From the NCBI GenBank assembly GCA_001247695.2, contig LGRX02003669.1:1-64000 (forward strand): a stretch of 64,000 nucleotides of DNA. The letters are read 5' to 3'. A model generated the notes under the pieces. It ran no database searches and was not told the DNA's origin. It saw only the letters and a program-made list of their open reading frames with translations. The stretch is from Cymbomonas tetramitiformis (Eukaryota > Chlorophyta > Pyramimonadophyceae > Pyramimonadales > Pyramimonadaceae). A program made the translations under genes and the position numbers. Positions 11,709-37,000 of this stretch are shown piece after piece (position 1 is the first letter of the stretch; every line of letters starts with the position of its first letter).

Positions 11709-11889
11709 CTGTATTCCGAGAGAGCCCAGTGAGACAAAGTGCTGATAACTATAAGTGAAATAACATAGCCTTCCGTTCCTTGTGACAAGAGAAACAACTC
11801 TAATAAAAAACCGGCACACAGCTGGCACACCTTCCCACCGGTGCAGTGTGCACCATACTGGCGTGTCCTGTGACCCCTGCACCTGCCCA

Positions 11890-12135
11890 AGCGTGCAGCG
11901 TGCTCCACACTGACGTGTCCAGTGAAGCTCCACCTGCCTACAGATGCAGCGTGCTCCACGCTGACGTGTCCAGTGAAGCTCCACCTGCCTACAGATGCAG
12001 CGTGCTCCACGCTGACGTGTCCAGTGAAGCTCAACCTGCCTACAGATGCAGCGTGCTCCACGCTGACGTGTCCAGTGAAGCTCCACCTGCCTCCAGATGC
12101 AGCGTGCTCTACGCTGACGTGTCCAGTGAAGCTCC
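11890..12135. repeat. 51-bp intron minisatellite of RABL2 (left copy, five units)
   Basis: Unit GCAGCGTGCTCCACGCTGAC plus CTCCACCTGCCTACAGAT. It ends abruptly at the duplication breakpoint. The right-copy array (39,520-40,225) is longer. Confidence 0.9.
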
Positions 12136-15323: not shown

Positions 15324-15734
15324 ACCAAACATTCTTAACATTCTAAGATTTCGCAAAATAGGGCTCCCATACTTAAGCCCATACTTAAGGAGGGTAACGC
15401 GTCGGCCCGCGTCGACGCCTGCGTTTTCACATACTCAAGAAAATTTAATGTTTTTCATCATACTCAAGGAATATACACCGACTGCCCCCTCCCCCCCTAA
15501 CCAGGGGCTCAGGGGGTTTCACCCAGTCGCATGCGAGTTTCTAACGTGCGTCAGAGAGACGAACCCAACGACAGAGCTTGACAATCGTATACGATTGTCA
15601 CACGTGAGTCTGGGTGTCGGACCTAGTGCTCCTGCTTGACGATCGTATACGATTGTCACACGTGAGTCTGGGTGTCGAACCTAGTGCTCCTGCTTGACAA
15701 TCGTATACGATTGTCACACGTGTGTCTGGGTGTC
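15248..15734. repeat. Left terminal inverted repeat of element E
   Basis: The reverse complement of 29,474-29,886. From outside in: GTCCGTCCAGTCCGTC-type repeats, ACCAAACATTCTTAACATTC, CATACTTAAG repeats, then a GC-rich run and three E palindromes (15,579, 15,637 variant, 15,695). The opposite end has two palindromes, so the unit number is variable. Confidence 0.9.
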
Positions 15735-15841
15735 ATAATATAAATATTTACACTAAACCCATGTCTATATAGAGTGTTCTTTTCATAAAATAATTCATTT
15801 CTCATGGTACATTCTCATGGTCACATTCTCATAGGAATCCA

Positions 15842-18800
15842 ATGCCGACTTCCCTGCGATACGGTAACCATGCTTTGGATGTCCCGCATGCGGTGCCAAT
15901 CTCTCTTCAGTTACTACAGGCCTTGTTTCCAACCCTTACCGATACCCTGCTGCTTCTTCACATGCGCAGCACAGAAGACGTGCAACCTGCCGAGCTCGGT
16001 ACCGTGTTCCCTGACGGAGCTGTCGTACTTGTGATCGGTGGTGTCAGTACAAACCCCGGATCTAGCGATGTGAAAACCCGTTGTGTAAATGCCGAAACAG
16101 CCACACACGAATCTTCCCAAGCATCAGCTTCTCCGCCTCGCCCTGAGGTAAAGCGCGAAATTTTAGTTTGTGACTTAACCGAATCGCCCCCACCTCCAAA
16201 AGACTCGAATGAATCTATGAAATCCTACAGCGCGGGACAAGAACCAAAGCTCAAGCACAAAGTCAAATCGGACTATGCATCATATATATACCGGACCAGC
16301 TATTCCGATAGATTTTTCTCAGGATGTTGATTTGTCCCAAGACGTAGCGTCTGTTCAGTCTGAAGAGCTTGTGGACGAACTGCCTGTGCCTCTACTTCCG
16401 GGGGTAGTTTACAAGCCACGGGCTGGAGTTTTCTCTCCGTGGAAGGATTTCTTAAAATACGATCCACAGACCTGGATGCGTTCTGGGGACAAACGACGTA
16501 TCAAAGGCCGACTCGTTAGAACTACGCGATGTGGTGGGGATTTATCCTGTGACAACGATGCGTGTGTCGTATTTTGTCGAACGGGTGACCGCAACCGTTC
16601 CCAATTCACCGGTACCTTTAAAAATCGCAATCTGGCTTGCGCCCATTGCAACGCTGCACCTACGCATTCTGGGAATTGCCCGTTTAAAGTAACCACCGAA
16701 GAAGACTCCGATTGGAACATCCTCGTCCTGTCTACTAGCCCCATTGGACACAACCATTCGGTGCTGTCCACCGACCGCCCCAGCGTGGGCGAGCTACAGG
16801 CAGCTAAGACTAGGGCTGAGGAGGTTCTAAATACCGGTGGTGTGCGAAACGTGTGCCAGGTAAAACGGACTCTACTCACGGAAACCGTTTTCCCAAAAGA
16901 CTTTTCTTTTCACCCCAGCCAGCTACCAGGCATCGCGAGGAAAATGAACGTCATTGATACGGCAGTGGACCATAATTTCGTGCGAGGTCGTCGACAGGAT
17001 GAGGGCATGAAAGCCGTTTCCCAATGGGCTGCTCAGCACGGCAAGGGCCTACTGCAATCTTTCGCGGACGAGGGGAACATCGACAGTTTTGCTCACACGT
17101 TCGTTATGTCCAGTGTCGGAGTGGATGGAGGTGTCGATCTCGTGCGTCGCATGCACCCGAAAAGTAGCGACGACTACCTTAGCTCAGCGTACGTCCACTT
17201 GGATTTCGTACATCGCAAGGTTTCTGGGGATTGGGTGACGATGGGGGCGCACGTGTTCTCCATAGAGGCCAACGCCCTGCTCACTATTGCCACCATGAAC
17301 GTACCCAAAGACTGTACCGAAACACAGGTACTTTTTTGGACATTGGTGAAGAAGACGGTAGCAGCCGAACATCCGCGTGAGGAAGTATTATTCTACGGCT
17401 TCATGGGAGATGCAGCAGGTAAGTTAAAGATCATAATTTTCAATGGGAGAGTTTGTAAGTTACACGGTTCTGACAATCGTATACGATTGTCAGCAACCGT
17501 TGACAATCGTATACGATTGTCAGCAACTGACAATCGTATACGATTGTCAGCACCGTGTAAACCTACGCATGATATACTTGGTTTTCAAGAACTGATTAAT
17601 ATTTGGGGCACAGGTGCTAACTGGGCAGCAATCAAGAAAGTTTGGCCAGACCAAGATGACCGTAACAATCTGGAGTGCACGTTCCATTGGGGGCAGAACT
17701 TACATAAGATCGAATCTCTTATTCCATCAGATCTCCATGCCGGGCACAAAGACCTGTTAAAGCGATGGATTCACTCTACTCCCGAGGCCAAGGTATCCTG
17801 TGAAACTGCCATCTTCGCTTGGTATGCTGAGAAGTGCGACAGGTCGAATCAGCCAAAATTGAATGCGTACTTCGTTTTCCAAATACGGCACGCGCAGCAC
17901 ATTCTTACGCAATTCAAGGATCAAACCGAAGACATGACCGCCGAAATCCAACGACCGCTTGTATGCCTTGCGGAAAGCATGCGCGCGAAGTGGAGATCGT
18001 GGGGGGCATACTACTCCACCTTGTTGGAGTCGGTGGAATTCGTTAGCCTTATGCAGATTCGACAAATTTGCCTGGCGATGAACCGGCAGAACTCTACAAA
18101 GCACTTGTTGTGCGTGCAAGGTCGTATTCGTTCATTGGAGGATAAGTGGGTTAAAGGCGTCCTTACTCAGGCAGAGTTTGCAGATGGTCGCGAATTAATG
18201 CAAACAGTTCGTGCTGGCGCGACAGGATGGCTTCCACAGAGGGGCATCCCTGCAACGGACACCCACCGTCCAGATAAGGTAAACCATGGGGGGGTTTCGC
18301 GCAAACGCCCTGCGGAACTTCCCTCGGAAGGCGTCGCCTCCAAGAAGACGCGCACTGCCTCGGCGGTGCCACCTGCCTCTGCGGCAAGACCTACCTCGGC
18401 GGCAAGACCTACCTCGGCGGCACCACCTACCTCGGCGGCAAGACCTACCTCGGCGGCACGTCCGGAGCGTGCTTTAGTTCGCGTTTACCCGGAAGCTGGT
18501 GGGGACTTCCAACCTTCCCTGCTTCACGTCACGCGGGCAGGCACTAACGGTAAATGCTATGGACGGAAGTCTAATGGTTCTCGTCACGACATCCCAATCG
18601 CGAAAGGGCAGCTGACTATTGGGTACACCGGAAGCTTGACCTATTATTTTCCAGCAAAAAACTTAACTCTTCAAAAGGGTCAAGTTCGCGAAGTGAGGAC
18701 CACTCCCCCGATCCGGAGGATTATATTCTGCTCGTGGAAATGTGTTCAAAACCCATGGTATTGTTGTCACGTTTCGATGCCTGGACTGCCCGAGGGGGGG

Positions 18801-19391
18801 GCGAACCGTGTACCCAAACTTCTTGTTGCACCGGACACAAAGATCCTGGAAAGTGAGGAGACTCGTCTCTGTTCTCTTGGTGTTTGCGTTGCCCATGAGG
18901 ATGTGACCCCAGAAGAGGCTCGAGGACATCTGGTGAGATCGGAGAATTCGGAGATGGACGTGGAGGAGAGACTTCGCAACGGTGTTAAGGTGAAAGCGAG
19001 TGGCAAGGGTTTCCTGACGAAGAAGATAGCGAATTTCTATACCGCGCTCCACAGCATGGTTAAGACCGATAACCTTGCACTGACTCAAATCCGGAAATGT
19101 GTTCCTGGTGGTGCAACCGTGTATAACTTCCGAGTTTGTCACCCTGATTCCGATGGCCGTGAATACCTCTTGGAGTTTGGACGAGAATACCGTTGTTCGT
19201 GTCCGTGTTTTCGAGAAATGGCGAGGACCCGACCTGCTCCCTGCAAGCATTTCCTTTGGCTGTACTCCGAGATATTCGAAATTCCGATCAATACGAGTGT
19301 GGGATACCTTCACGAGCCATCTCTGCTATCCTCAGAAGTTCGCAAAATACTGTCGTATTATCCTGGAATTCCGGACAACTTCGATCTCTAG
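15842..19391 (+). CDS. MULE-type transposase with WRKY/GCM-like and SWIM zinc fingers
   Basis: The product should cut and rejoin element ends through an RNase-H-fold DDE domain. In the frame beginning at 16,275, residues 75-165 hold a C-x-C...HNH zinc-binding region like the WRKY/GCM1 (FLYWCH) finger of MULEs. The core has VHLDFVHR (first Asp), DCTETQVLFW, GFMGDAAG (second Asp) and LECTFHWGQNLHK. Near the C-terminus CSCPCF...APCKHF is a SWIM finger. A 195-bp GTAAGT...CAG intron (17,419-17,613) splits the second Asp block. Removing it restores GDAAGANWAAIKK, and it contains three E palindromes. A Ser-Ala-Arg-Pro-Thr repeat with a basic KKTR patch lies near 18,350-18,470. The N-terminal part (15,842-16,280) is in another frame, and one extra TA in the TATATA run at 16,282 would join them. 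A separate upstream exon or a start at 16,275 is also possible. Confidence 0.85.
17419..17613 (+). other. Frame-neutral transposase intron packed with three E palindromes
   Basis: 195 bp, GTAAGT to CAG, divisible by three and without stop codons in the coding frame. Palindromes sit at 17,471-17,492, 17,501-17,522 and 17,528-17,549. If retained, each is read as DNRIRLS. Confidence 0.85.
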
Positions 19392-19609
19392 TTGCTTAGC
19401 TAGAATACAAACGTAAATCTGTTATGGTATGTTAAATATTTTATAGTGTATGCATTTTCATATACGTTATTCAAAACATTTTGTATACCATTGCATGTAT
19501 TAGCACCCTCATCCACATTCGAATATGATTAACCGTACGGTTCCAGCTTGACAATCATATACGATTGTCACACGTGAGAGAGAGCCGAACTTAGCGCCGA
19601 GATCGTGTA
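19392..19609. other. Transposase 3' flank and first partial 156-bp unit
   Basis: An AT-rich downstream region, then a partial 156-bp unit with a variant E palindrome (19,559-19,580, ATATAC for GTATAC). This unit is cut at about 19,609 by the foldback element. Confidence 0.7.
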
Positions 19610-20843
19610 CAGGCATGTAGCACGGCTAGGTGGGCCCGGATTGCATAATCGATGAAAATGACATTTAGAAGTCGCAAGAAGTTTCAAGAAGTACTTAGTG
19701 GTGAAAAGAAATCATCTAGAGGCAATATCTTATATTTTTGATAATTGTAGTGGCCACAGGGCTGCTTACAGGTCGCGGATGGGCTGCCGTACATACATTG
19801 CATATCTTGCGGGCGCGTGAGATATGCAAATGATACGGGGCAGTTATTAGACGTGGTGAGAAGTATTTAGAGGTCATCCGTAGGCAATGAGAAGCGAAAT
19901 TTCACATCGGGACATATTCACGGGGTGCTGGGGAGCTAATTTCGTCTGTAAAATGGCTGCAAAGCAGAAATTGCATATCTTGCGGGCGCGTGAGATATGC
20001 AAATGATACGGGGAAGTTATTACACGTTGTGAGAAGTATTTAGAGATCATACCTAGGCAATGAGAAGCGAAATTTCACATTGGGTCATTTTCACGGGGTG
20101 CTGGGGAGCTAATTTCGTCTGTAAAATGGTTGCAAATCAGAAATTGCATGTCTCGCGGGCGCGTGAGATATGCGAATGATAGGGGGAAGTTATTACACGT
20201 TGTGATAAGTATTTAGAGGTCATACCTAGGCAATGAGAAGCGAAATTTCACATTGGGTCATTTTCACGGGGTGCTGGGGAGCTAATTTCGTCTGTAAAAT
20301 GGTTGCAAATCAGAAATTGCATGTCTCGCGGGCGCGTGAGATATACAATATTAGAAATCAAAATGTTAGAAGTCATTGCAAGTTATGAGAAGTCATCACA
20401 ATGCATCATCACATGAATACTGTGTTATAGTGTGTATTGTATATCTCACGCGCCCACGAGACATGCATTTTCTGTTTTGCAGTCAGTTTACAGACGAAAT
20501 TAGCTCCCCAACGCCCCGCGAATGTGACCCGATGTGAAATATCACTTCTCGATGCCTAGTAATAACTTCTAGATACTTCTCACAACTTCTAATAACTTCA
20601 CCGTATCATTTGCATATCTCACGCGCCCACGAGACATGCATATCCTGCTCCGCGGCCCATCTGCGACTTGTATAGCAGCCGTGTGGCCACAGTAATTATC
20701 GAAAATGTAAAATATTGCCTTCGGGTGATTTCTTATAACTTCTAACATGTTCTTGAAACTTCTTGCGACTTCTTAATGCCATTTTCATTGATTATGCAAC
20801 TTATAGTGCAAGCCCGTTCACCTAGCCGTGCTACATGCCTACA
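19610..20843. mobile_element. 1.2-kb foldback element inserted in the palindrome array
   Basis: Inverted arms of about 190 bp (AGGCATGTAGCACGGCTAGG at the left; CCTAGCCGTGCTACATGCCT at the right). Inside, the left half holds three or so direct units of ~172 bp (GCATATCTTGCGGGCGCGTG core) and the right half one inverted unit. It has no coding capacity. It interrupts a 156-bp repeat at a point that is uninterrupted (GTGTATCCTA) in later units, which shows it was inserted. Confidence 0.75.
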
Positions 20844-20844
20844 T

Positions 20845-21290
20845 ATCCTATAGCATGTCGTATAACCCTGCCTGGATATTCGCGAAGAGTTTGTCACTAC
20901 TCGTGCACATTCGAATATGATTAACCGTACGGTTCCAGCTTGACAATCGTATACGATTGTCACACGTGAGAGAGAGCCGAACTTAGCGCCGAGATCGTGT
21001 ATCCTATTGCATGTCGTATAACCCTGCCTGGATATTCGCGAAGAGTTTGTCACTACTCGTGCACATCTGAATATGATTATTCGTACGGTTCCAGCTTGAC
21101 AATCGTATACGATTGTCACACGTGAGAGAGAGCCGAACTTAGCGCCGAGATCGTGTATCCTATTGCATGTCGTATAACCCTGCCTGGATATTCGCGAAGA
21201 GTTTGTCACTACTCGTGCACATCTGAATATGATTATTCGTACGGTTCCAGCTTGACAATCGTATACGATGGTCACACGTGAGTATTGTAT
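20845..21290. repeat. 156-bp repeats with E palindromes upstream of the H3-mimic gene
   Basis: Three units (20,845, 21,001, 21,157), each ending with one E palindrome (20,941-20,962, 21,097-21,118, 21,253-21,274 with one change) and a CACGTGAGAGAGAGCC tail. Together with the partial unit at 19.5 kb they occupy the spacer where the promoter of the next gene should be. Confidence 0.85.
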
Positions 21291-21452
21291 TAGATATATT
21301 TATAGATTTCTTTATCTATATATACTAGGAAAATATTAAAATAATTCATAATTTTAGACATGTCTACTGGGAGATTATCAAGAGTCAGAAAGCCCACTGC
21401 TAAGGCAATGGCTGTGTCTGCCGGGCGTGAGGGAGGTGCGTATCTGCATCCC

Positions 21453-21458
21453 TATAAA
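21453..21458 (+). promoter_or_regulatory. Possible TATA box for the H3-mimic gene
   Basis: TATAAA lies 34 bases before the ATG at 21,492. If used, transcription would start just before that ATG and give a protein whose second residue begins an exact H3 tail. It is within a frame open from an earlier ATG (21,360), so this is an inference. Confidence 0.35.
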
Positions 21459-21491
21459 TGCATGTCGGGGTGTCATTTGTTTCATTATTGC

Positions 21492-24400
21492 ATGGCTCGT
21501 ACAAAACAAACCGCTCGAAAGAAATTCGGAGGCACAATTAGAGATTTACAGCGTATGGCCTCCGGAGGTGCACAGGCCTCTCAGAGCGGATCTATGGCAT
21601 CCGGGGCAAGTGGTTCAAATGAGTTACCCGCCGCTGGTGTTGCTCCAGGTACCGCAGAAGATGCCACTCCAGTCGCAAGTGGAGATGCCACTCCAGTCGC
21701 AAGTGATCCTCAAGCTACAGGTAAATCGACAAAGCTGACTATTAAAGTTGGTGAGCCGAAACCAGCTCAGCAACCAGCTCAGCAACCAGCTCAGCAAGTC
21801 GTTGCGCTAATGCACGAGTATACCGCTACACATAAACAGAAGGAGAAGAAAGACCTCGAGGCAAGAATTTTGGCCCTTGTGGAAGATGGTGGGGATATAG
21901 TTGATACAGCTGTTGCATTCCTGAAGAATGAGAACGAAAATAAAACTGCTGGCACTCTTAAAAGAATGCTAGGTAAGAGAAAAGTTGGTGCAGTTGCTGT
22001 TGGGGAGGAGGCAGCGCCAAAGGCAGCGCCAGAGGCAGCGTCAGCTCCTGCACCCCAGGCTTCGGGGAGTGCACCACCGCCAAAGCGTGCTCGTGACACG
22101 AAGGGTAAGGCAGCGATATCTGGGACCACTGGTTACGACAATAGGCAAGACTACGTATTCCCAGGACCGCTGAATATCCAGAAAGTGATCCAACAATGGA
22201 CTCAACGTCCCGAGCCTAATTCTCGAGAAGACAAAAAGCTTCCATTAGTTGCCCCTCTTGGCTTGCTGGTACATCCTGCTGATGTTGATGGGGACGCAAA
22301 CCAACTTTCGTTTACCCGCGCGACTTCACAAGAGGGAATAGAGAAGCAGAAGAAGGTCATCATGGAGCGATGGGAGGTGGACAAATCACATGTCATCGCG
22401 TGGTGGACTGGACACTATTACACGGACGCAGAGTATAGGCAAATGCTCATGTCCAAGTTTTATCCCGGTGAGTCCCGGCCATTGCTTGTCATCATTAGCA
22501 TTATGCAAGGGTTTGGGACTTTCCTACAAAGCTTGACAATCGTATACGATTGTCAGACTTGAGTTCATTTCGTTTGCTTACAGCAGCGGATGCGGCGGCT
22601 CCTGAGGAAGTAAGCAACTTCGAGAAAATGGTGAGCAATCTGGAAAAAGACTATCTCAGCCTATTCGATAACGATCCTGACGACTACAAGAGGTGGGTGA
22701 AGAACAAGTTCATGCGAATGCAGCTTGTCGTGGTGGATGGCCAGCATCGCTATGACGCCTGGCTTGACCTTGTCCTGGACGCAAGGAAACGTAAAGCATT
22801 CTGGAACGGTACCGGGACCAATAATAGGTCCTCTCTGGAGGGGTTGGCCACAACGATTATAATTCTGAAGAAAGAAACACCTCTTTGTGTTTTGGTAAGC
22901 AATCCTTGTATGATATCGTTTGTTTCATTATCAATAAAATACCGTGTGTACATGAATGAAAGTTTTACACGTTTCGGTTTGAGCAGAGCCTTATCGGGAC
23001 ACTGACGAACACCGACCAAACAGAAAGTCTTGTTGACTCTCACGAACACGATAAATGGATTTTGCTGTTGAATATTGCCGACGCCTCGGAAGAACAACTG
23101 GCGCAAGTTACACAATTTCCGGTAAGGCAAGCTAGTGCCAAGAGTAACGCTTGGTATCGGAACAATCTGAGCGATACGACCGCGGCGGCCTACTCGAACG
23201 AGATTTCCAGGATTCAGGATCATTCGGCAAAAGTTGCCCTCCTCCAATCGCGCGAGCGGGATGCGCAAAATGTATGAAACTTCCGCGCTCTCTCATGTGT
23301 CCTCACCCACGCGTGACAATCGTATACGATTGTCAAGCTTTGGCGCTAGCTTCGCCCCTGACTCACGTTTGACAATCGTATACGATTGTCAAGCTTTGGC
23401 GCTAGCTTCAGTTCTCACCCACGTTTGACAATCGTATACGATTGTCAAGCTTTGGCGCTAGCTTCAGTTCTCACCCACGTTTGACAATCGTATACGATTG
23501 TCAACCTTTGGCGCTAGCTTCAGTTCTCACCCACGCGTGACAATCGTTTCGCCCCCGTTACATGTGTCCAACGTGTCTTGCTTGCAGATTTTGCGGTTAC
23601 TGGATCCAAAACTGGGAGAGGAATGGCGGAAGGAAGCTCTGGAGTTGAAGAACTATCCGAAAGAACTGCAGCCTGTTCTTACCCTAGAGGCTATAAGCAC
23701 CTCGCTATCAGCCTTAGGGTTTGATGTACGATATTTTTTCTTTGTTCTTAAATCCTATGCTGTTATGGCATTTGGAGTTTCTACGGCATGGTCGGCTAGA
23801 CCGTTGCTTCTTGGTGCATATGAAAGCCATACGTGTTCGTGCTTGCAACCAAGTTCTTCTTGGCATCGTTAGGCACATTTTGAGCTATCGAATGCCTTGA
23901 TAGGGGGTCTCTAAGGGGTCAGAATGGGCGTTTGTGGGGGGTAAATCGGTCGATTTGACACGCGGAAACGCCGGAGATTCCAGCATAGGAGTTAAAGTGG
24001 CGAAGGAAGGAGTATACGTGGCCGATGTGGACAAACGGAAGGAGTTCTACCAGAAATATGGGATCAGTTGCAAGGGCAAGTTTTTGACTGGCACTGAGTT
24101 CAGCACGTATTGTCATCGTCTTGGTTTCATCAAGGATGTCATCGAATCTGCCAAGGCCAAGTTTGCCTCGCTGATGGGTTGGACTAAATACCCAGATTGG
24201 TATGAACACGGACAGGGTATCACGGACGTCTATGATGATGAGGAGGATACGCAGGAGGTGGGCTATTTAATTTAGATTATTTCTTTGTGATTTTAGATTA
24301 ACCCATTTTCATGTTGATTTTAGATTTTTTTATGTCATCCGGCTATTACCGGTGCATGCATCCATGACGCTGTACTGTACCTACTGTTGAGCTATCGCCA

Positions 24401-27400
24401 TGCCATGCGAAATATTACACTCAACACTGAAGAGTTGTCTTGCCGTGATGTCCATATGTCCGAATGGAACCAAAAACCGTTCGATTAAAATCGAACGGTT
24501 TTTGGTTCCATTCGGAAAGATTCACGGCCGTGAATCTAAAAGTCACGGCCGTGAATAACGACTCTTTCCCCATAATGACTTTTATTATTTGCCATCTTTG
24601 CCACAATAGACACTCACGGCGTGTTCTACTTGAAAAAAAGTAAGTAACTTGAAGCCTTGAGCTTCAAGTTACTGAAAGATATGTATCTTGGCAGTATGTG
24701 TGCCAAGTTTCGTGCTCTAGGACGCACGGGAAGCCCTCGGCTGTTTGGCATCTTTGGGTTTGGGTGTCACGTTCGAACCCAAACCCAAAACATCTGCCTT
24801 AGAAATAAATTGCGCGTTTCGCGCACAAGTAACTTGAAGCCTTGAGCTTCTGGTAACTTAAATATATGTATCTTGGCAGTATTCGTGCCAAGTTTCGTGC
24901 TCTACAGTAATCACTCACCTTTAAGAAAACCGTAAATTCCAGGTCAGCCAGCTTTTCTCATCGACTTGGGTACCCCCGCCAGCGCCAGCGTCCTATGGAA
25001 TCTGTTAAGAATAGTGACCGCGATCTTTTAAGCCAGCCAGCACATTCCATAGCCATCCACGTGTCATCCTTACGTAGCCAGCCACATTTCTTAAAATTTT
25101 CAAAACCTAGAAAATGGACCCTGAGAGCCGTGCACAGTTGAAAGAATTAAAGCAGGACTTAGCCGATGATATCATATCTGAATCAGACTATTTAGAACTG
25201 AAGGCCATCATTCTTAGTGCCGTCAAGTCAAACGCTCGTAGCAAGAATGCAACCCTCCCAGAATCCAGCCTAGATTTCTTGATATATATGAACTTTATGA
25301 AATGCCCCTTAAGATAGTCAGCCAGCACCATATTTCTTATCGCAGGGTGATTCCATAAGAAAAAAAGTCCAGCCAGCTTTTCTCATCAACTTGGGTACCC
25401 ACCCCCCCCCCAAAGGCTGGCTGGTTCCTTAACGTCGAGGTTCCTTAAAGGTGAGTGATTACTGTAGGACGCACGGGAAGCCCTCGGCTGTTTGGCATCT
25501 TTGGGTTTGGGTGTCACGTTCGAACCCAAACCCAAAACATCTGCCTTAGAAATAGATTGCGCGTTTCGCGCACAAGTAACTTGAAGCCTTGAGCTTCTGG
25601 TAACTTAAATATATGTACCATGGTAGTATTCGTGCCAAGTTTCGTGCGTTAGGACGCACGGGAAGCCCTCGGCTGTTTGGCATCTTTGGGTTTGGGTGTC
25701 ACGTTCGAACCCAAACCCAAAACATCTGCCTTAGAAATAGATTGCGCGTTTCGCGCACAAGTAACTTGAAGCCTTGAGCTTCTGGTAACTTAAATATATG
25801 TACCATGGTAGTATTCGTGCCAAGTTTCGTGCTCTAGGACGCACGGGAAGCCCTCGGCTGTTTGGCATCTTTGGGTTTGGGTGCCACGTTCGAACCCAAA
25901 CCCAAAACATCTGCCTTAGAAATAGATTGCGCGTTTCGCGCACAAGTAACTTGAAGCCTTGAGCTTCTGGTAACTTAAATATATGTACCATGGTAGTATT
26001 CGTGCCAAGTTTCGTGCGTTAGGACGCACGGGAAGCCCTCGGCTGTTTGCCATCTTTGGGTTTGGGTACGTTCGAACCCAAACCCAAAGGCAAAGGCATA
26101 GGACAGTTTCGTAGATTCTGTCCCGATGCCTTTGCAACCTCGCTTGCTAACTCATATTACAATGAATATTCAACATTCAAGCGTTGGATACCCCACGCCA
26201 ACGGGAAGTGCTCGGCTGATTTGTTATTTGGGTATGCGCACCCAAATGACAAAAAACGCATCTTTGAAACTCGTTAGTTTCAAAGATGCGTGGCCGATGC
26301 CTTCGTGCTTATGTGTGTTAATCCATATGAAATATTCCATGGAATAAATGTGAATATCCCGCACAAACGGGAAGCGCTCGGCCGTTTTGTAAAATTTGGG
26401 TGCACCCAAAATACAAAACGCATCTTTGAAACTCGGAAGTTTCAAAGATGCTTGCCGGTCGCGTGCAGCGGTAAAATGCAAGTCAAAGGGTTTAGGATAC
26501 AGAAGAAGTACAGAGGCCTTTTTTTCAAGCAGAACACGCCGTGAGTGTCTATTACAACGGCGCCCACCATTATCACAAGCGAGACAAATCTTCTTAAAGC
26601 TTTTTCGAGAGCGTTTGACCTGTGTGCACATTATTTGAACAGGAGTCGTGAAAAGGACCACCGGTCATAGCCGGATGACATCAAGAAAACTTAATCTAAA
26701 ATCAACATGAAAATGTGTTAATCTAAAATCACAAAGAAATAATCTAAATTAATTATTTTTCCTACGCAGGAGACTATACTCAAACTAAACGCTGACAACC
26801 CTTGGGGACCCTATGACTTTGATGGGGAATCGTACCGTGATTCGCAGCATATGACGTACGTGCAAAAGCATCACCGGACACTTGGGCAACACGTCCACGG
26901 AGAGCCTGATTTGGAAACCAAGCTTCTGGTGTGGATGTTAATCAAATCTTCCAACAGATTCTACACTGCACGCTTCGATGAGGTCATGAAGAGCATGATG
27001 AAAGCAAAACGATGGAAGCGCGTTGATTCCAAGGAAGGAAGGGCTATGGACCGGAGTGTGAATACGCCATCGCATGATACCATGCATACTTACAAGACTC
27101 TTGTGGATTGCGCTGGTGAGTTAGTCCTCACACGTATTTTTTGTAAGTTGCAGGATTTCAAGTCCTAACGAGAGTTATGTTTGCTATGCAGCCACGCGTA
27201 TGATCTTGTGCTACATTCACTCCTTGCCGGAAGACTACATCGAGGTTCGAAATGCCGGTCGCTTTGGGGCTACGTTCACGAGTCCGAAGCTTTATGGCCC
27301 TGCCTACACTGAGGCACCCGTGAAGGATCCCTCATGGTTTCTGCAGACGTTGGGCATCATCCATACGAAAAGGGGGTTTGAGGAAAACTGCCTGAATTTG

Positions 27401-28635
27401 CTATGGGCGATTCCAGCAGCAGCTGGGTCTCAGATTAATATGGCCCCTGCAGTACTGGCAGCGTCGCGGATGATGGAAGCCAAAGAAATGCCAGATATCA
27501 TTCACGAGATCGCCGCGTTCAGTGCGAAGGTGACCCCGTTGATACACTTGTGATGATCATGCCATGGGGATGTAAGGGCAGTTGGTATATCCACTGAGAA
27601 GTGTGACAATCGTATACGATTGTCAAGCTCTGGCGTTACCTTGACTTAGAGTCTGCTCTGTCTCTGAGTTCGAAGACTGATTCTGATGCGTAATACAGGC
27701 TGTTTGGGAATGGCTGGAACTCCGTGTGAAAGCGTCACGCCGGGAGGGCGGGATGCCGGATGCTCTGAACCAAACGGAGATTTTCGATCTTGATTGGGAC
27801 CCGAAGAGCGCTGTGATTGAATTCATGGAGCTGAAAATCGAACACAAGGAGCTGCATGCTGCCGAGGGAGTCCAGTATGCGGTGGACTTCAACATGTGCC
27901 ATCGCGCGAAGTTGCAGAAGAAGCTTCTGACGGGTTTGCTGGATTTCGGAATAAAGGTTAGAGCTGTTCAAATATTTACATTGCAATGTATTAAGTATTT
28001 GCTGCGTATGTATTTCAAAGCAGACTGATGAAAGCAATGTTCCACAGGTTAACGATTCTCTCGCCGAAAGGAATAAGTGTGCACGCAGCAATCAAGTCAT
28101 GGTCAATTGGCGCAGTGCAAAAACATTGCAACACACTCGCTATGGAGTGGATCTGATCTTTGTGGATGGTCCTTTTGGGCTGTTTTCGGAGGTATGGGAT
28201 ACCTATTCAACAGACTTCTACTCATACATGGGTGGTATTTGCATGTCGACTATGGATTATGGTGGCATTGTGATTCTATTCTTACCGGACTCGACTACCC
28301 GCAGTAACGTGACCATTAATGGAAAAACCTGCGCGATATCCAGGCAGCAAGCAATCATCGATGCCTTCTGCGCTTCGACCACCGGCTGGCCGCTGAAATG
28401 GACATGCCACCAAACGGTTCAATACTGGAATCGAGGCGGAGGACGCATAGGTAATAATGCGGCTGGTCCGGTCAGCGTTTTGCAACCGTATGTGTTGCTG
28501 CACTTGGTGGAAGATCCCTCAATGAGTAATAAACTACCGAAGTGGGCCCCGCTGCGAAGCACGGTCGGAAAGTTTGCGAACGCGTTCACGAACATCATGG
28601 TAAGAATTCTGGTATGCATTCATATCTTGTCATGA
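21492..28635 (+). CDS. H3-tail mimic / ParB-like / amino-methyltransferase-like protein (nine exons)
   Basis: Exons, all phase-consistent: 21,492-22,467; 22,584-22,894; 22,987-23,271; 23,588-23,725; 23,916-24,257; 26,770-27,115; 27,192-27,529; 27,699-27,956; 28,048-28,635. From the ATG at 21,492 the protein begins M-ARTKQTARK-KFGG, identical to histone H3 residues 1-9 with Lys4 and Lys9 kept but Ser10 and Thr11 replaced. A start at 21,360 would add 44 residues and bury it. There follow a low-complexity Ala/Ser/Gln region with an NLS-like PPKRAR, then exon 2 with VVVDGQHRYDAW, a ParB/DGQHR-type motif. Later exons are not recognised. The last exon has LIFVDGPFG and GGIVILFLP, like motif IV (D-P-P-Y/F class, here DGPF) and the next strand of DNA amino-methyltransferases. 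The altered motif could mean lost activity. Introns 1, 3 and 7 carry E palindromes. Exon structure is convincing; the domain names are moderate (ParB) to weak (methyltransferase). Confidence 0.75.
22534..22555. repeat. E palindrome in intron 1
   Basis: A perfect 22-bp copy between the GTGAGT donor (22,468) and the acceptor (22,583). Confidence 0.95.
23314..23549. repeat. Four E palindromes plus a half-site in intron 3
   Basis: Perfect copies at 23,314, 23,370, 23,426 and 23,482 on a 56-bp period with AAGCTTTGGCGCTAGCTTC spacers, followed by a truncated half-site at about 23,538. Confidence 0.95.
24460..24515. repeat. Perfect 56-bp palindrome
   Basis: Arms of 27 bp (CCGAATGGAACCAAAAACCG plus TTCGATT) separated by AA. 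It would form a strong hairpin or cruciform. It sits inside the TTAA-flanked element. Confidence 0.95.
24905..25464. mobile_element. 560-bp TA-flanked MITE nested in the TTAA element
   Basis: Terminal repeats CAGTAATCACTCACCTTTAA and inverse. TA precedes (24,903) and follows (25,465). The neighbouring repeat units read GTGCTCTAGGACG without it, so the TA was duplicated on insertion, as with Tc1/mariner-type elements. Related ends occur at 4,133-4,364. Confidence 0.85.
25114..25317 (+). CDS. 67-residue reading frame within the MITE
   Basis: It starts at an ATG and runs MDPESRAQLKELKQDLADD then IISESDYLELKAIILSAVKS. It looks like a short amphipathic helical protein, faintly like SHOCT-type short helical tails. 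No ribosome or promoter evidence. It may be a captured fragment or chance. Confidence 0.25.
   Translation: MDPESRAQLKELKQDLADDIISESDYLELKAIILSAVKSNARSKNATLPESSLDFLIYMNFMKCPLR
27604..27625. repeat. E palindrome in intron 7
   Basis: A perfect copy between exons 27,192-27,529 and 27,699-27,956. The left copy of the duplicated block enters the window at this same palindrome. Confidence 0.95.
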
Positions 28636-28693
28636 ATGAAACTCCGCTAAACAAAATTGTCAAGCAGGTGCACTAGCTCCGACACTCAGGTGT

Positions 28694-28715
28694 TGACAAT
28701 CGTGTACGATTGTCA
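28694..28715. repeat. Variant E palindrome 3' of the H3-mimic gene
   Basis: Carries the same central change (GTGTAC) as the left copy at 1,087, so the change predates the duplication. Confidence 0.9.
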
Positions 28716-28821
28716 GAAGTGTCTGGAGGGTAGTTTTGGTATGCACGGCGTGAAACATATTGTTTTTCATACATGTACATATACGGTTTATTTGTGTCCA
28801 GTCACGTGACATAAGTGTTAG

Positions 28822-29327
28822 CTACCAAGCATACGTCTCCTCATTGCACGCGCTAGCATCAATTATGCGCGTTAGGGTGCAGATTCTGAACATACGCCCG
28901 CAAACTGCGCATCTCCTTTCATCTTCCTGCAGCAGATCGCTTTCCAGCTCTGTCAGGGCACCGTGCGTAGTTTCGCTGTAGCGGTATCTATTTCGCCAGC
29001 CCCGCCACTCCAAATCTGAGTATCGGTGGTACGGTAGATCCACCCGCCCTCATACCAGTACACGAGATGCCTCACCCCGAACCTTTCGCTGGATCTACGG
29101 CCGTGGACGTACATCGGCCAAAAACTCCACCAGTGATAGGTCCTGAGATTAACTGCATGTTGCCCGAAGTCCTCCCAGTCTTCTTCAGCTTGTTGCCGCG
29201 CTTGCCGCCACAAGCGGAGAATTAAACGGTCTTCAGGAACCCATTGGGCTTGTTGTAACTGGCAGTCGCGAAACGTAAAAGTATCGAAAGGCCATATCCA
29301 ATACTGCAATATTCCAATATTGGGCAT
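28822..29327 (-). CDS. Trp-rich small protein at the end of element E (right copy, frame change)
   Basis: Reading from 29,327, about 95 residues rich in Trp, Arg and Gln (IWPFDTF, DRLILRLWRQARQQ, WWSFWPM) are followed near 29,040 by a change of frame into a stretch with LTELESDLLQEDERR and CAVCGRMFRIC. The join could be an unseen intron, a frameshift or decay. It is the only coding-like sequence between the H3-mimic gene and the right terminal repeat, and runs towards it. No family recognised. Confidence 0.4.
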
Positions 29328-29473
29328 ACTGGTGTAGGTAGTCTAAGGTGCGGGTTGTGGTTCTATGTGACGAACGCAGGTGTGTGCAAATGACCTCCGG
29401 TTACGACTCCTCCAACATATACCCTAAAACCCTGAACCTTGGACGCCCCGATATGTCCATGTGCAGCACACCT

Positions 29474-29886
29474 GACACCCAGACTCACGTGTGACAATCG
29501 TATACGATTGTCAAGCAGGTGCACTAGGTCCGACACCCAGACTCACGTGTGACAATCGTATACGATTGTCAAGCTCTGTCGTTGGGTTCGTCTCTCTGAC
29601 GCACGTTTGAACACGCGCATGCGACTGGGTTATACCCTGAGTCCCTGGTTAGGTGGGGAGGGGGGAGTCAGTGTATATTCCTTAAGTATGAAGAAAAAAT
29701 TTAAATTTTCTTAAGTATGTGAAAACGCAGGCGTCGACGCGGGCCGACGCGTTACCCTCCTTAAGTATGGGCTTAAGTATGGGAGCCCTATTTTGCGAAA
29801 TCTTAGAATGTTAAGAATGTTTGGTCCGGTCCGTCCAGTCCGTCCAAACTGGACGGACCGGACGGACTGGACGGACCGACTGGACC
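29474..29886. repeat. Right terminal inverted repeat of element E
   Basis: The inverse of 15,248-15,734, with palindromes at 29,492-29,513 and 29,550-29,571. Confidence 0.9.
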
Positions 29887-29889
29887 GAT

Positions 29890-31020
29890 ATGAATCCCCC
29901 CAGGATCCGCCAGCTACCAGCCCCCAAGGCTGACAGCCGCCCCACCAACAGGCTACCTCTGGTGGGGAACAAGCCTCCTGGGAGGCCAGCCGGCAGAGCC
30001 GCAAGCATGGTGACCACCCCGTGGGAACCGGCTCCCGAGCCAACACCCCGTGCGGTGCCCCAAAGAGGGCACGGTCGGGTGTCAGCAGTGAGCACACTGC
30101 TGATGGGTCGCCGGAGGTGTCCACATCGCCGCAACTCAAGTTGCCCAGGGAGGAGGTTCGGAGGCCGATTGAGCCTCTGCCTGTGGACTTGTGGACCCCC
30201 CCCCAGGTGCAGACTACTTCCGTGGCGGACGGCTCAGGGAGCCAGTCAACAGGGAGTCAGCAGCTCGGGATGCCAGCAGCATCACTAGCTGGTGACACTC
30301 AGTTGCCAGCTGCAGGGGATGCGACGCTGCACAAGCGTCTGGCAGACCTCAAGCTGCAGCTCGAGATAAAAAAACTCGAGGAGCGGCTACAACAGCGGGA
30401 GGTGACAGCGGGAGGTGACAGCTGTGGAGCTCCAATGGGAGGGAGCATGGCAGCAGTTCCTTCTCTCGTTGAGCTCGTGCAGCAGGAGCCGCAGACGCAG
30501 GAGCAACAGGAACATGGTTGCACAAACCCCTGAGCAACAACCCTTGCCGCAACCTCAGGCGGTGCCGATGCTCCAGCAGCTCCAACAGCTCCAACAGCTC
30601 CAGCAGCTCCAGCAGCTCCAGCAGCTGCAACCCCTTCTGCTGCAAGCTCCCCAGCCCCAGCTCCAGCAGCTGCAAGCTCCCCAGCCCCAACTCCAGCAGC
30701 TGCAAGCTCCCAAGCCCCAGCTCCAGCAGCTCCAACAGCTCCAACAGCTCCAACAGCTCCAACAGACCCAGCAGCTGCAACCCCTTCTGCTGCAAGCTCC
30801 CCAGACTTTGCAAATGCAGCAGTCCCAGCCCATGCTCCTTCAGCAACCACAGGCCCGACAGCTCCAGCAGCTCCAGCAGCTCCAGCAGCTCCAACAGCTC
30901 CAGCAGCTCCAGCAACTCCAGCAACTCCAGCAGACCCAGCCATTGAATACCTCGGACTTGGGTAGGGCCTCGGGCGTCTCCATAGAGGAGTTGCAGAATT
31001 TGAGCATTCCTAGGTCTTAG
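29890..31020 (+). CDS. Coiled-coil and Leu-Gln-Gln repeat protein (right copy, frame broken)
   Basis: Same content as 2,267-3,397: a Pro/Ser-rich start directly after element E, a short coiled coil (about 30,350-30,400), a frame offset near 30,515-30,530 and LQQ repeats to a stop at 31,018-31,020. The repeat region is unchanged in length between copies. The function is unknown; it may be the severed 3' half of the dioxygenase-like gene. Confidence 0.45.
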
Positions 31021-34000
31021 GCGTAGTGTACATATTGTACACATTGTAAATATCATTTTCTCTTTTGTTTGTTTGCCTTGTCTTCATATTTAAATTGCCT
31101 TGCCAATTTTTAGTGTAACACATGCATTCTGAATTTGCACACTTGCATAATTTGCAAGAAATCATTCATAATAAGTTTCGAAAAAAGCACTAGGTTGGGA
31201 GTATTTGCACAACATTATCTATCACACATATATCATACCCCCAAGCGTGCCTGGAAAAATACTCAAAACGACACAGCTACAAGTGATTGTTTGTTTGTAC
31301 ATGGTAGGAAAAAGTTCTTCACAAATAGCATTCAACCATTAATTTGTTTCAATGTGGTCTATGAATCTTCATCATGTGTACTTTTCATTCCACTCCATAC
31401 CCCAAAGCCTTCCGCACCTCATATGTGCTCAAAACCAAGATTTTTTCGTAAATACTAGCTCTTATGATTTTTTTCTAAAATCCAAAATTGCGACGTTCAT
31501 TAATAAAGTCGTGGTGCGGTTTGGAGACCTTCAAAACATGGGTATTACATACCCCACAACCACCCGCTAAGCGAACACAGCCCAAAAACAGCGATTTCCA
31601 GCCCGTTCAGATGAAAAAAATCTCCAAAAATCTCAAAAAAAAAAATATATTTTTACTAATTTATTTGCCTTTTACAAGGTCTAGTGACTTTATAAACCTT
31701 AAAAAATGGTCATTATCACCCATTATGCATTTTCCGACGCGGGGGTATGCGACGGCTCAGTAATCACTCACTTTTAAGAAAACCCGACGTTAAGAAAGCA
31801 GCCAGCGTTTGGGGGTACCCAACTCGATGAGTACGGTGGCTTTTCTCTCGACAGTGTTAAGAAATAAGAGAATACAGTGTTAAGCTAAGAAAATGTGGGT
31901 GCTGGCGGGGAGGGGGGGGGTACCCAACTCGATGAGTACGGCTGGCTGGCCCAAAATCCATGTTTTCTTAAATATGGGCGATTACTGTATGCAGTATGCC
32001 CATATATACGATGAACGGATAGGGTTAAGGAACCTGGAAAAGCTATTCGGGCCGTTCCGGCATGGTATACGTCTACGATTGTCAAAATTCTCCTTAGGCT
32101 GGATTAATCCAACTTACCCGTAAAGAGCCACCTGGGGTTTTCCTCGAAGGGCCTTTAAAAACTTGGAAATCTTTGTCGTCAAGTTCTCGAGTTGTTCCGT
32201 TTCTGCAATGTTCGCGTTATCAAAATGTTCATCCGAGTCGTCATCTTGACTCTCAAAACAAGGTTTCAAGTATAATATGGGTATGCGAAAAACTAAAATT
32301 CCTTAGGAAATTCTAGAAAGATTGGCACCCCATTAAATACATCCCCAAATTGCACATCGACAAATCGGCGATTCGCCCAATAGTGACAGAGCTCCCGAAA
32401 TACGGGAGTAGTAAAGCTAACCACTAGACTGCGCTAGACGGTATAGACGGTACCATATCGTTTATATTACCTAGGGCCCGGGGTTCCACTCCGGGCATGC
32501 GCTATGCATTGAGTATACCACAGTCTAGTGGTTAGTTTCGCTGCTCCCGCATTTCGGAAGCTCTGTCATAAACTTCTTCCCTCGGAGATTCGAACTGGAA
32601 GTGAAATCGAGGTTTCTTTTCGCAGCGATGACGCTTGAGCTTCCGAGGATTGATAGCAGGGGGGGGGGCGGGTTGTAAATTACCCCCCTCTAGGAGTTAT
32701 TTTTTGTCCTTGGGGTTAGCCCCCCTAGAACTTGCACTCGCGCACATACGGTGGGCGGGCGGGAGTGCCCCAAGATAGCCGATACCACCATCACGCGTGC
32801 GGGACGGGCGGGAGTGCCCCACGCGGACACCACCATCACCATCGCGGGGCGAACGGGAGTGCCCCACGGTACCACCACAACGCGCGTGGGGCGAGTGGGA
32901 GTGCCCCACGATAGCACCATAACGCGCGCGGATCACGGGCGGCGCGGACTAGTCACGCAAGGATGGTGGGGGTGGGAGTGCCCCGCGCTATCGCCTCACA
33001 TGTGATATTATTATGCGCCGCAGGCGCGAATTTTCGAACATTCCTGACTTTTTCGTTGAACACGACTAGAGTTATTCCGAGGCAAGGGTGTGTGCTCAGA
33101 CCCCCAAGGAGCTTCCGAGGATTGATAGGGGGGGAGGGGCAGGGTTCAGGAATACCCCCCTAGAACTTGCACTCGCGCACACTGGAGTGCCCCACGGAAC
33201 CACCATAACGCGCACATGGCACCCACGGGGGGGTCGAAATGTAGCGTTAAGGGGTTTGGGTATTGCCCGGCGAGTTCTCCAATGTATGCTATCGATGTTA
33301 ATATCTATAGTACCTATTTTGGTGTTGCTGAAAACGGTGTTTCACTCCGTTTTAGCTGATACGATTGTATTTGGTGTGCACCATATGTAGAAGTCAAGGG
33401 GGTATAGGTCGTATAGCATAGGGTTTGTGCGCGCTGACACCTCATACACGCTGGGGGTGAACTAATGGGTAATATTTGAGTTCTAACTTTATTAGATATG
33501 TATACAAAGAAGCTTTAGGAACTACAGAAAACCGGGGAGTGCTGAAATCTCATTTCGCATCATAGGATGTGTGGTTTGTTATTACGCGAGAATATTACTG
33601 TTATCAATAACAACACCAAAAAAGCAACCTTTTCAAGGCTAGTTTTTCCCACAAGAGTGCATATAATACAAAATATACCTATGTTTTCTCTGCCCTTAAA
33701 CAGGAGGCACCGGCTACAGCTGGCGAGCGACGCTCCCAACCCTTTACAGGCCGGTGAACAGCATCCGATGCAGTCTTATTATATGCAGACCCCTACTGTG
33801 CACGTGAAAGCGCCTCCCTCAAACACGAAGGGAGCGCCATACCGAATATATCGGTTATGCACGACAATGTTGTTTATCTAAAAAGTGCTTTATGAAGTCA
33901 GCTACTCTACGGTTGCCAACGGAACCGACGGGAATGTCCTGGTTGCGATGTAACCGTCGGTTCCGTTGGCAACCCTCCCCTCCCCCCCCCCGGAACTGTT

Positions 34001-37000
34001 GGGATTCTAACCCAAGCTGAGTGCACTTAACGCACTCAGGCTACAGTCCCATCAGTACTTTTACTATTCCGTACTTCTTTCCAGCGCACCGTACCGTGAC
34101 TGCGTGCTGCATCCGCAACATGCAGTCAGGGTTCTAACCGGCTTTCAAATCGAACCGGCAGCCAACAGGGTGGCGTATCCCCTCACATACACGTAATTCT
34201 AAACCGGTGTCACTTACCTCTAGACAACTGGCACGTATCCCTTGCCTGTGTCCCTTGGAATCTGTTCTGTCCCACCCGCCCCCGCCCCCGGAACTGTTGG
34301 GAGTTGAACCCAAGCCGAGTAGGGTAAGCCTCCGTACTCAGACAGCAGCCCCAAAATATATTTTCTAGCACTTCAACAAATTCAGCACAAGCAACTGAGT
34401 GCTTGCCTGAAGAGGGCCAAGCTAAGTCAAAGAAAATAGACTCGCCGGCTGGAGCGAGCCGGCTGCACGCTGAGAGTGGATTTCTCAGCACAGGAAATTT
34501 TGTTTCAGACCGCGAGAAAAAAACAAGGTAACGAGGATCGCTGAGAAGCAAAAATAGAGTTGGACACTAGCTCAATATGGCCCGCGGAAAAAAATATTGT
34601 TTCAAAGCAGCTTCTTGGAGTTTTTTAATCTCTGCAGGCCAGTCTGCAAACAAGAAACCACACGAAAGTTAGAAGGGGGAGCAGGGGTGATTAAACCCGA
34701 GGACGTCGAAGTCCGCCAGAGAAATATTCTCAGGACGCGCTGCTCCCTTTAAGAGAAAACGTACAGCCCTTCCTGCTGGGTCAAACAAGCTTGTGACCGA
34801 GTTTCGTGCAAGGCGATGCAGTACAGGGTGGACCACAATGAATCAACCTTATGAGCAGAAAATCAGTGCTTGCGCAGTGGCTCTCATGTTCCCACCGAAC
34901 GCGGTAAACTTCTATCAACTGAGACTCGAACTCAAAATTCGGCTACATGGAAACTTTTCTAAAAAGCCTCATCTAAAATCTGAAAAAAGAAGATCGTATC
35001 CCTATGTACTAGTAATTTTACTAAATCAATGCGCGTCACCTGTTGCGTTAGCAAAAAGAAGGCGGAGCAAGCGACTACGTAGTCTGTTCGAAGCCAAACG
35101 CGATATATAGTGCAATTCAGTGCACGTGCAGGGTCAAAAATGTTTTCAGAGGGCTTGAAAAAAAAATGTTTTGAAGCACGCCGCCAATTGTGCCACGTAG
35201 GACGAGTGAGCGTCTGCGGAACTCCGTGGGGTCAGTCACCGGTTTTCGCGCGGAACGGAGGACGATTTTAGCACTAACAACTCATTCTTAAATCTCGATT
35301 TTACCGGTAGTCATGGGTGCCATGTGCGCGCGCGGGGCAAGCGGGAGTGCCCCACGATACCACCCGATGACGCGCGCGGGGCGGAAGGGAGTGCCCCACG
35401 ATACGTGCCCCATGATACCACCATCACGCTCGTGGGGGACGGGAGTGCCCTACGATACCCCACCACGCTCGCGGGGCGGGCAGGAGTGCCCCACGATACC
35501 ACCATCGCGCGCGTGGGGCGGGCGGGAGTGCCCCACGATACCACCATCACGGGCGCTGACTAGTCACGCAAGGATGGTGGGGTGGGAGTGCCCCGCGCTA
35601 TCGCCTCACATGTTATATTATTATGCGCCGCAGGCGCGAATTTTCGAACATTCCCGACTTTTTCGTTGAACACTGGAGTTATTCTGAGGCAAGGGGGTGT
35701 GCTCAGACGCCCCCCCCCTAGGACTTGCATTCTGCCAGGTGGGCCCCCCCACCTATAACTTGGATTTGTAGTGGGGTCTCCCCCCACCCCCGCTATCAAT
35801 CCTCGGAAGCTCCTTGCCGGTACGTGCGGGGGTTACGTGCTGAGCTCGGTGGTTACTGCCATGGGGTCCTTATTACAGGACCCTAACCCGACTCGCCTAG
35901 CTAGTCCAAGAAACTGGGTTTCTAAGTTGCAACCCATGGTGCGATACTTGGACCAGAGGCCAAATTTCTCCCAGGGATTTTCGTTCAAAAAGGGAATTCA
36001 AAAAGGGGGGCATTTTAGGATTTTCACAAGGTTCCAGGGGGCTTGCGGCCCAAATTACTTGCCACGACCCATTTTCTCTCCTCCGGCGATCAATGCGGCC
36101 GTTTTTCACCATTTTCTTGGACTAGGCCGACTCGACTTACTCTACTTGATGCGACGAGTTGGGGACGTTGAGAAATTAGGCGTGGGGCAGCAATGGAGGT
36201 GCGGATTTCTTTAGGCCGTTCCTTAAGCATCGTGCTTTTTGTTACACTTTTAGTTTTTCGTAAATACGTATGGGCGATATCAGACTCCAAACACCGCCCA
36301 ATAAAATAAAACGCAATTGCGGGGGCAGCCCTCCCCACCCCCTTCTTATACACGACCCGATATCAAGGTGGGGTATCGCGGGGTTTTTTGAACTTATAAA
36401 AAACAGTAACAATGAATAACACATTTTTGTTATCGAGTGATATGAATAATTTCAATGAACTTATCGAGTGATATGAATAACTTCAATGAACTTATCGAGT
36501 GATATGAATAACTTCAATGAACTTATCGAGCGATAACGATAGTTCTAGCGCACTTGTTGATTGGTGTGAATAACTTCGCAGAGCTCGATTAATCATGCTA
36601 CGTATCGATAACACCTGCGATAACCTTCCTAACCAAAGTTTTCATATCATCCTATCAATCACACGGACTTGCGTCCGTCTCACTGTAGCCTCATGCACAC
36701 CAACGGTGATATTGGCGTTGCTACTCACATCATACGGGTTTTTATGACGAGTGCGCTTCACAAGTCCATTTTCTTGAGCCACAATCATCACGCCTTCGTC
36801 AGCAGTGCGCCTACGCGTCAGCCCTTTCCCACAACCCATGGCGATGTAGAACGTTTCAATGGCGACCCATCTGAAGGAAGAAAGTGGAATTATGACCTAC
36901 TGGTCCACCCACCTTGGAAATGGTGTAGCAAAGTCTATGCAACACTATGCACCGGTATCGATCGACGCTTCCGTCCACAACGCAGGGAGATTCGTATCGC

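Follow-up and report, generated by a model that had tools for sequence, protein, structure and literature searches.

The window analysed here, a 64,000-nucleotide stretch of Cymbomonas tetramitiformis DNA taken whole (contig LGRX02003669.1), contains a transposon of ~14.6 kb in which long inverted repeats enclose a transposase-like open reading frame (ORF) and a multi-exon gene (Table 1). The ATG at position 21492 of this gene encodes methionine followed by ARTKQTARK, which is identical to residues 1-9 of histone H3; the tail peptide of the element protein is ARTKQTARKKFGG. The original prediction, made from the letters of the window, had proposed such a tail on a protein with ParB-like and methyltransferase-like parts, inside an element with its own transposase. 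The tail was borne out, and the transposase-like ORF does lie between inverted repeats of 91% identity. Palindrome arrays, a 3' truncation, nested insertions and earlier reports of ParB-methyltransferase transposon proteins in algae came in addition to what had been predicted.

The window has 2145 ATGs, counting both strands; the one at 21492 gives a match of 10 residues to the start of H3 (Met counted), and the next best gives 4. A chance match was set aside, as no other ATG in this set shares more than four leading residues with H3. The protein has tail residues 1-9 of H3 and not its histone fold, for which no Pfam histone match was obtained up to an E value of 5. The positions of H3 Ser10 and Thr11 are occupied by Lys and Phe in the window copy, and Gly12 and Gly13 follow as in H3.

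Retention of the tail and choice of start codon

Searches of the genome covered the 851.7-Mb assembly (25,745 contigs). In a six-frame search with the tail, all 150 scored matches (of 304 candidates) extend to residue 1 of the query, and a further search, with 150 of 408 candidates scored, likewise pointed to many copies of the element. The codon pattern for the ten residues occurs at 296 places. Among the 100 of these that were listed, 87 are of the element type and 13 are histone H3 genes, the remaining 196 lying beyond the listed 100; extrapolated from this listed third, the tail would be present in roughly 250 copies of the element. The exact 30-mer of the element is present at 85 of the 87 places, and the two others are silent variants that, when read, proved to be element copies. 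All 13 other listed places read on as histone H3; in one of them the frame breaks further on, and two are interrupted by intron-like sequence. Since each of these 13 non-element places is an H3 gene, the host H3 has the same tail.

Residues and start sites were counted at 44 distinct places. All ten tail residues are kept in 43 of them, R2 to K9 being invariant and A1 being Thr in one. Beyond the tail, K10 is Glu in one copy, F11 is Ile in six, and G12 and G13 are kept in all 44. The expectations that relatives would keep the H3 match and that Ser10 and Thr11 are replaced therefore hold among the copies.

Informative sites were counted in 41 of 48 loci; four of the remainder coincide with loci already counted, and three are additional copies that were left out. 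None of the 30 sites in the tail is informative. Between the upstream ATG and the tail there are 22 in 132 sites, of which the last 55 sites hold 5; the later two parts of exon 1 have 150 in 717 and 21 in 217, and intron 1 has 20 in 116. The ratio of nonsynonymous to synonymous polymorphism (pN/pS), obtained for 33 of the 41 copies after dropping six that lack the donor block and two with a stop, is 2.04 for the linker and 1.76 for the front of the ParB-like region, which makes the tail a fixed point beside a nonsynonymous excess. Of the listed H3 forms, the commonest (6 of 13) differs from the tail of the element at five third positions and at no residue, and the probability that five random single changes would all be silent is ~0.001; against two other listed H3 forms there are four differing positions only (counted by eye). 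The tail is a non-chance feature and has been retained across copies.

The sequence before ATG 21492 is also constant. A TATAAAT box stands at -39 in 43 of the 44 copies and at -38 in one, and the 15-mer from -12 to +3, TTTCATTATTGCATG, is identical in all 44. In the window the box begins 31 nt before the A of an initiator-like TTTCATT, the usual distance from TATA to transcript start. The frame of an upstream ATG (-132 or -135; 21360 in the window) is open in 33 copies and absent in 11, of which six have no in-frame upstream ATG at all and five have a nearer one only. As 11 of the 44 copies lack the upstream frame while every one has the TATA box and the initiator, transcription starting near 21484 and translation from ATG 21492 are favoured on sequence grounds. 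Use of the 21360 ATG as the sole start, which the original prediction had named as fatal to its reading, fits poorly with the dispensability of that ATG in a quarter of the copies.

Gene structure, methyltransferase and palindrome arrays

Table 1 Coordinates of the element, its gene and associated features in the window.
Feature	Position	Strand	Remarks
Second element copy, 3' part	1-2265	+	Gene end 1-1028; right terminal repeat 1882-2265
Three further palindromes	1087-1957		In the partial second copy
Left terminal inverted repeat	15265-15676	+	Aligned over 417 positions with 29474-29885 in reverse complement: 91% identity
19 palindrome copies (≤2 mismatches)	15579-29571	.	Within the window element: in both terminal repeats, in the inferred intron of the transposase, between genes, in the introns that follow exons 1, 3 and 7, and beyond exon 9
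Transposase-like ORF (stop to stop)	16221-19391	+	MULE (Mutator-like element)-like zinc-finger and CxxH motifs by eye
Inferred intron of the transposase-like ORF	17419-17613		Contains three palindromes
TATAAAT box	21453-21459	+	First T 31 nt before the A (21484) of TTTCATT
Start codon and H3-tail mimic MARTKQTARK	21492-21521	+	Prefix comparison, genome search, copy alignment
Exon 1 (from the favoured ATG)	21492-22467	+	Tail, fast-changing linker, front of ParB-like region
Exon 2	22584-22894	+	Contains DGQHRYDA
Exon 3	22987-23271	+	
Exons 4 and 5, window model	23588-24257	+	In copies C4, C463 and C4902, joined to exon 6 as a single exon that lacks ~23750-23993
Nested insertion with inverted ends	24258-26762	.	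TACGCAGGAG duplicated on both flanks
Exon 6, window model	26770-27115	+	
Exon 7	27192-27529	+	
Exon 8	27699-27956	+	
Exon 9	28048-28599	+	Methyltransferase motif IV (DLIFVDGPFG); GTAAG donor follows; next exon missing in the window copy
Right terminal inverted repeat	29474-29885	-	Pairs with 15265-15676

The nine exons originally drawn do give an open frame through GT-AG introns. The 2.5-kb 'intron' after 24257, however, is a nested insertion: copies C4, C463 and C4902 read straight through this point, and empty insertion sites were demonstrated in C4 and C463. These three copies also lack the ~244 bp near 23750-23993, so that the three window exons 4-6 are one exon there. Together, the GT of the first bases of the insertion and the AG of the second target copy make an in-phase spliceable intron that adds one codon, and the insertion could behave as such. 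At its 3' end the window gene is truncated, ~3 kb that include the last exon and are present in C4 and C463 being missing near the palindrome at 28694. Copy C4 has an uninterrupted frame of eight exons and 1313 residues from MARTKQ.

The methyltransferase is thereby split. The predicted stretch LIFVDGPFG...GGIVILFLP is present in exon 9, but this is not the last exon of the gene: the window copy holds the motif IV half only, and motifs X and I lie in the last exon carried by C4 and C463, which in C4 reads NIRSVQKPIRLYRELMRLYS...MEFPCGTAPAS. It is through this last exon that the methyltransferase-like part gains profile support, the N4C/N6A methyltransferase domain being found in C4. The exon matches phrog_18293 (methyltransferase) at E 3.9e-5, CcrM NF050803 at E 5.6e-5 with a score of 22 bits (cut-off 830), CcrM in the PDB at E 0.055 and PF01555 at E 0.041, below the cut-off; a corrinoid-associated methyltransferase model also matched C4 (E 4.8e-5). 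With a longer methylase region, tblastn found 328 phage records, all at <60% identity and the best (2e-7) annotated as hypothetical, and Lactococcus phage 'DNA methylase' genes matched it at 1e-2; a phage search with window exon 9 alone gave no match. Aligned with three phage proteins, DGPFG falls on DLPYG or DLPFG, followed by W-D and then by the block of motifs X and I, and DGPFG is invariant in the three-sequence alignment of exon 9 (A1). The motif order is IV, X, I, as in the beta class. Based on the profile matches and the phage alignment, which are weak but consistent, the protein's methylase is thus of the beta-class (IV-X-I) adenine-type family, with a non-canonical second residue in motif IV and putative activity. 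It shares with the beta-class adenine methyltransferases (CcrM, MboIIA and the phage DLPYG proteins) the motif order and the best-scoring DNA-methylase profiles and PDB sequences, and differs from them in having DGPF for DPPY, a degenerate motif I and a fusion to a long eukaryotic protein.

As predicted, DGQHRYDA is located in exon 2. The ParB-like resemblance consists of this DGQHR motif, VVVDGQHRYDAW, alone, phage matches being at E 0.8 or worse, and ParB stands at motif level. A protein-database search with exon 9 returned two relatives, and searches with the first 60 residues of exon 1 and with the spliced window protein matched nothing. Solved-structure searches with window exon 9 and with the transposase ORF gave no meaningful match.

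The palindrome TGACAATCGTATACGATTGTCA is perfect over 22 bp. At ≤2 mismatches, 22 of 22 sites in the window lie in element DNA; outside the window elements none was found at 4 mismatches and two at 5, and the core is absent from 47 kb of non-element window DNA and from 25.5 kb of H3 loci. Five of the 19 sites in the window element are in or adjoin the terminal repeats. Three other copies contain 16, 8 and 28 palindromes (44 of the 52 perfect); 30 of these lie in introns of the gene and none in an exon of it. Across 40 copies of ~2 kb, hand-picked to span the identities from the genome search, 115 of 129 palindromes are perfect (≤6 mismatches allowed) and none is in exon 1. From copy to copy the arrays vary in number; they are often tandem, and their spacing is 44-58 or ~150 bp. 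Within the window and the copies read, these are element-specific motif arrays in noncoding DNA, the mode known from VANC.

A second family also has the core of the palindrome. Its member at C3689:16263-18003 codes for a relative whose protein identity to C4 is 38-66%; over exon 9 this relative shares 90% identity with P0001, the product of a public contig of 869 bp (for this comparison 150 of 361 candidates in a genome search were scored). Four palindrome-core sites are present in this family, GAACAATCGTACACGATTGTTC, TGGCAATCGTATACGATTGTAC, CGACAATCGTACACGATTGTCG and GAACAATCGTGTACGATGGTTC. In the first and third, outer bases have changed on both arms and are still complementary, with 20 of 22 positions pairing; in the second and fourth the numbers are 16 and 18. 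P0001 itself ends in YNRIRL, which is a reading of the palindrome core in the matching intron region (protein sequence only). Such symmetric conservation points to a symmetric protein complex as the reader of the palindrome, which makes it a candidate binding site. The 5' part of the gene in the second family has been replaced by retroelement-like sequence (by eye). An F-box-like ORF stands beside the methylase gene in both families, on opposite relative strands (L070, C4:49188-50108, minus; L079, C3689:18452-18877, plus); the L070 ORF matches F-box-like PF12937 at E 0.014, below the cut-off, and that of L079 is similar by eye.

A possible anti-silencing factor and its alternatives

We put at roughly 0.45 the probability that the gene encodes a VANC-like, element-specific anti-silencing factor, that is, an accessory protein of the transposon. 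If translation begins at ATG 21492 and the initiator Met is then removed, ARTKQTARK would be exposed as a free H3 N-terminus. Sequence-specific binding to the palindrome arrays, by the protein itself or jointly with the transposase, would keep it at the element that encodes it. There the tail would recruit or occupy host readers, writers or erasers of H3K4/K9, and the phage-type adenine methylase would add N6-methyladenine (6mA), making the chromatin of the element look permissive. Histone mimicry occurs in some viruses and host regulators, and in SNAG-type and viral mimics a short N-terminal H3-like peptide on a non-histone protein recruits chromatin enzymes; those mimics are partial, whereas here nine identical residues stand on a transposon protein. 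Because chromodomain contacts extend to residue 10, partners on the K4 side (writers, PHD readers, LSD1-type erasers) seem more probable than readers of the HP1 type. Ser10 and Thr11 are phospho-switch sites, which their loss would remove.

The comparison with VANC is by parallel anatomy. According to passages of PMC5735166 and PMC10398659, VANC has its binding sites at short motifs in the introns and noncoding tandem repeats of the VANDAL element that encodes it, and it removes silencing marks. With this Arabidopsis system, as described there, our element has in common an accessory gene, an element motif, tandem arrays in introns and upstream that change in number, and a fast-changing protein. 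It differs in that VANC removes marks and the window protein should add one, and in that the motif here is a long palindrome and a putative target.

A narrower and more tentative version of the anti-silencing reading is that the protein acts as a bipartite false-chromatin factor, in which a free H3 tail and an adenine methylase, aimed by the palindrome, would write both H3K4-type engagement and 6mA onto the element itself. Passages of PMC12695648 describe an enrichment of 6mA together with H3K4me3 in the permissive chromatin of many unicellular eukaryotes.

Several points weigh against the anti-silencing interpretation. In one amoeba, the same source reports, 6mA is independent of H3K4me3. The window copy lacks the last exon of the gene, the methylase profile scores are far below curated cut-offs (CcrM, 22 against 830 bits), and the canonical DPPY/F active site is replaced by DGPF, where the three aligned phage relatives have DLPY or DLPF. 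No ParB profile in Pfam, NCBIfam or PHROGs matched, and structure prediction for exon 9 was poor (mean pLDDT, the predicted local distance difference test, of 42 from 3 sequences) and was not used. Between the window copy and C4 the ratio of nonsynonymous to synonymous substitution (dN/dS) is 1.32 overall, a value that relaxed decay could also yield; by part it is 3.3 for the linker, 0.96 for the ParB region, 1.61 for the middle and 0.74 for exons 8-9, so that strong purifying selection across the whole protein is not demonstrated. The copies are close relatives of one another, low variation extends to the noncoding DNA directly upstream (5 of 55 sites), and as the second family has lost its 5' end, conservation of the tail is seen among close copies only. 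Restriction of the palindrome to element DNA holds for the window and the copies read.

The best-surviving alternative, which we nonetheless hold to be unlikely, is that the tail works as a decoy or soluble sink: standing in for histones, it would be methylated or bound and would titrate silencing enzymes without being targeted to the element, and the palindromes would serve the transposase only. Palindromes are indeed present in both terminal repeats, repeats near transposon ends are common transposase sites, and Pfam, NCBIfam and PHROGs profiles identified no DNA-binding domain suited to the palindrome in the protein. However, many palindromes are internal, with only 5 of 19 at the terminal repeats and 30 of 52 in introns of the gene, as VANC targets are, and a coupled methylase argues for action on DNA.

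Less probable again, in our judgement, is that the element captured this 5' end from a histone H3 gene and retained it mainly for its start and expression features, with little or no chromatin role. The 13 H3 genes begin identically, the element retains GG at 12-13, and the low variation reaching the noncoding DNA directly upstream would also fit. The changes relative to host H3 are nevertheless silent only, with zero replacements, the sequence after GG is unlike H3, and a TATA(A/T)A at the spacing found in the element is lacking from all 13 H3 genes (one has it at -86).

It is improbable that the first start is the upstream ATG at 21360, or that an intron at 21436-21531 removes the tail, leaving ARTKQTARK internal or spliced out. 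The open upstream frame in 33 copies, the nearer in-frame ATG kept by 5 of the other 11, the presence of TATATATA at 21317-21324 and the in-phase GT-AG intron that can be drawn speak for it. Against it, the frame is broken in 11 copies and an in-frame upstream ATG is wholly absent in 6, a TATA box and initiator at standard spacing precede ATG 21492 in every copy, and the drawn intron has a poor acceptor, GGAG, with G at -3 where the other acceptors of the gene have C or T; either variant leaves the invariance of the peptide unexplained. That the gene is decaying baggage of a once-active element and the tail a relic is very unlikely: dN/dS near or above 1 in most parts and the truncated, interrupted window copy would agree with it, but there are many copies, C4 has its uninterrupted frame of 1313 residues, and zero informative variation in the tail beside high variation, with 115 of 129 palindromes perfect in 40 copies, does not.

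Proteins of this general kind have precedents. According to passages of PMC12477816, the Ectocarpus element Sola1-1 carries a 1104-residue accessory protein with ParB and N4C/N6A methyltransferase domains, its authors propose that the protein binds and modifies its own element, and green and red algal ParB-methylase cases are cited to Iyer 2011 and Petroll 2025. Judged from that description, the two systems share a long protein (1104 residues there, 1313 in C4), a giant DNA transposon and an N4C/N6A-type methylase; they differ in the transposase, in a ParB resemblance that here is at motif level only, and in the palindrome arrays described here. The terms 'H3 tail' and 'mimic' are absent from the main text of PMC12477816, as are 'histone' and 'methyltransferase' from that of PMC10675990, a paper on a Cymbomonas tetramitiformis assembly. 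ParB-methylase proteins as such are known in algae; an H3 tail on one of them, or on any transposon protein, did not appear among the papers listed by full-text searches of the open-access literature.

The findings suggest, short of proof, that by imitating chromatin the element remains active in its host. If this is true, a mobile element uses a histone-tail mimic against silencing. An exact H3 tail, a methylase and binding-site-like arrays together would make chromatin counterfeiting by mobile elements directly testable, in a lineage for which little is known of silencing and 6mA, and the palindrome gives the reported, unexplained ParB-methylase transposon proteins a candidate target sequence.

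Architecture and surroundings of the element

The transposase-like ORF did not match the MULE Pfam profile, and a SWIM zinc finger was matched at E 0.04 only, below the cut-off. No target-site duplication (8-11 bp in MULEs) was seen at the ends of the element, which bear variable GGAC/GTCC hairpins; the outer edge of the left terminal repeat is uncertain. An endogenous virus was set aside, as no capsid-like gene was noticed by eye among the ORFs, although no dedicated search was made. In the viral contigs searched, the tail pattern and the palindrome were not matched, and relatives of the transposase ORF, exon 9 and P0001 were not found.

The partial second copy of the element sits in a 12-kb duplicate of 27608-39763. 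This duplicate, 1-12136, has 99% identity to that stretch and is either a recent tandem duplication or an assembly effect. Large inverted repeats at 19610-20843 (arms 19641-20002 and 20437-20799) form a further nested insertion, with no counterpart there in C4 and C463. Adjoining the left side of the element, an ORF at 13833-15272 (+) shows by eye a pattern like that of 2-oxoglutarate/Fe(II) (2OG-Fe(II)) oxygenases (HRD...H...R); a Pfam scan of this ORF and of 28956-29342 gave no match. Further along the window lie a ~3 kb high-GC block with many repeated ORFs (51500-54500) and CACTA/EnSpm-type transposase ORFs (54899-57526, +), of which 55534-56100 matches Transposase_21 at E 4e-21.

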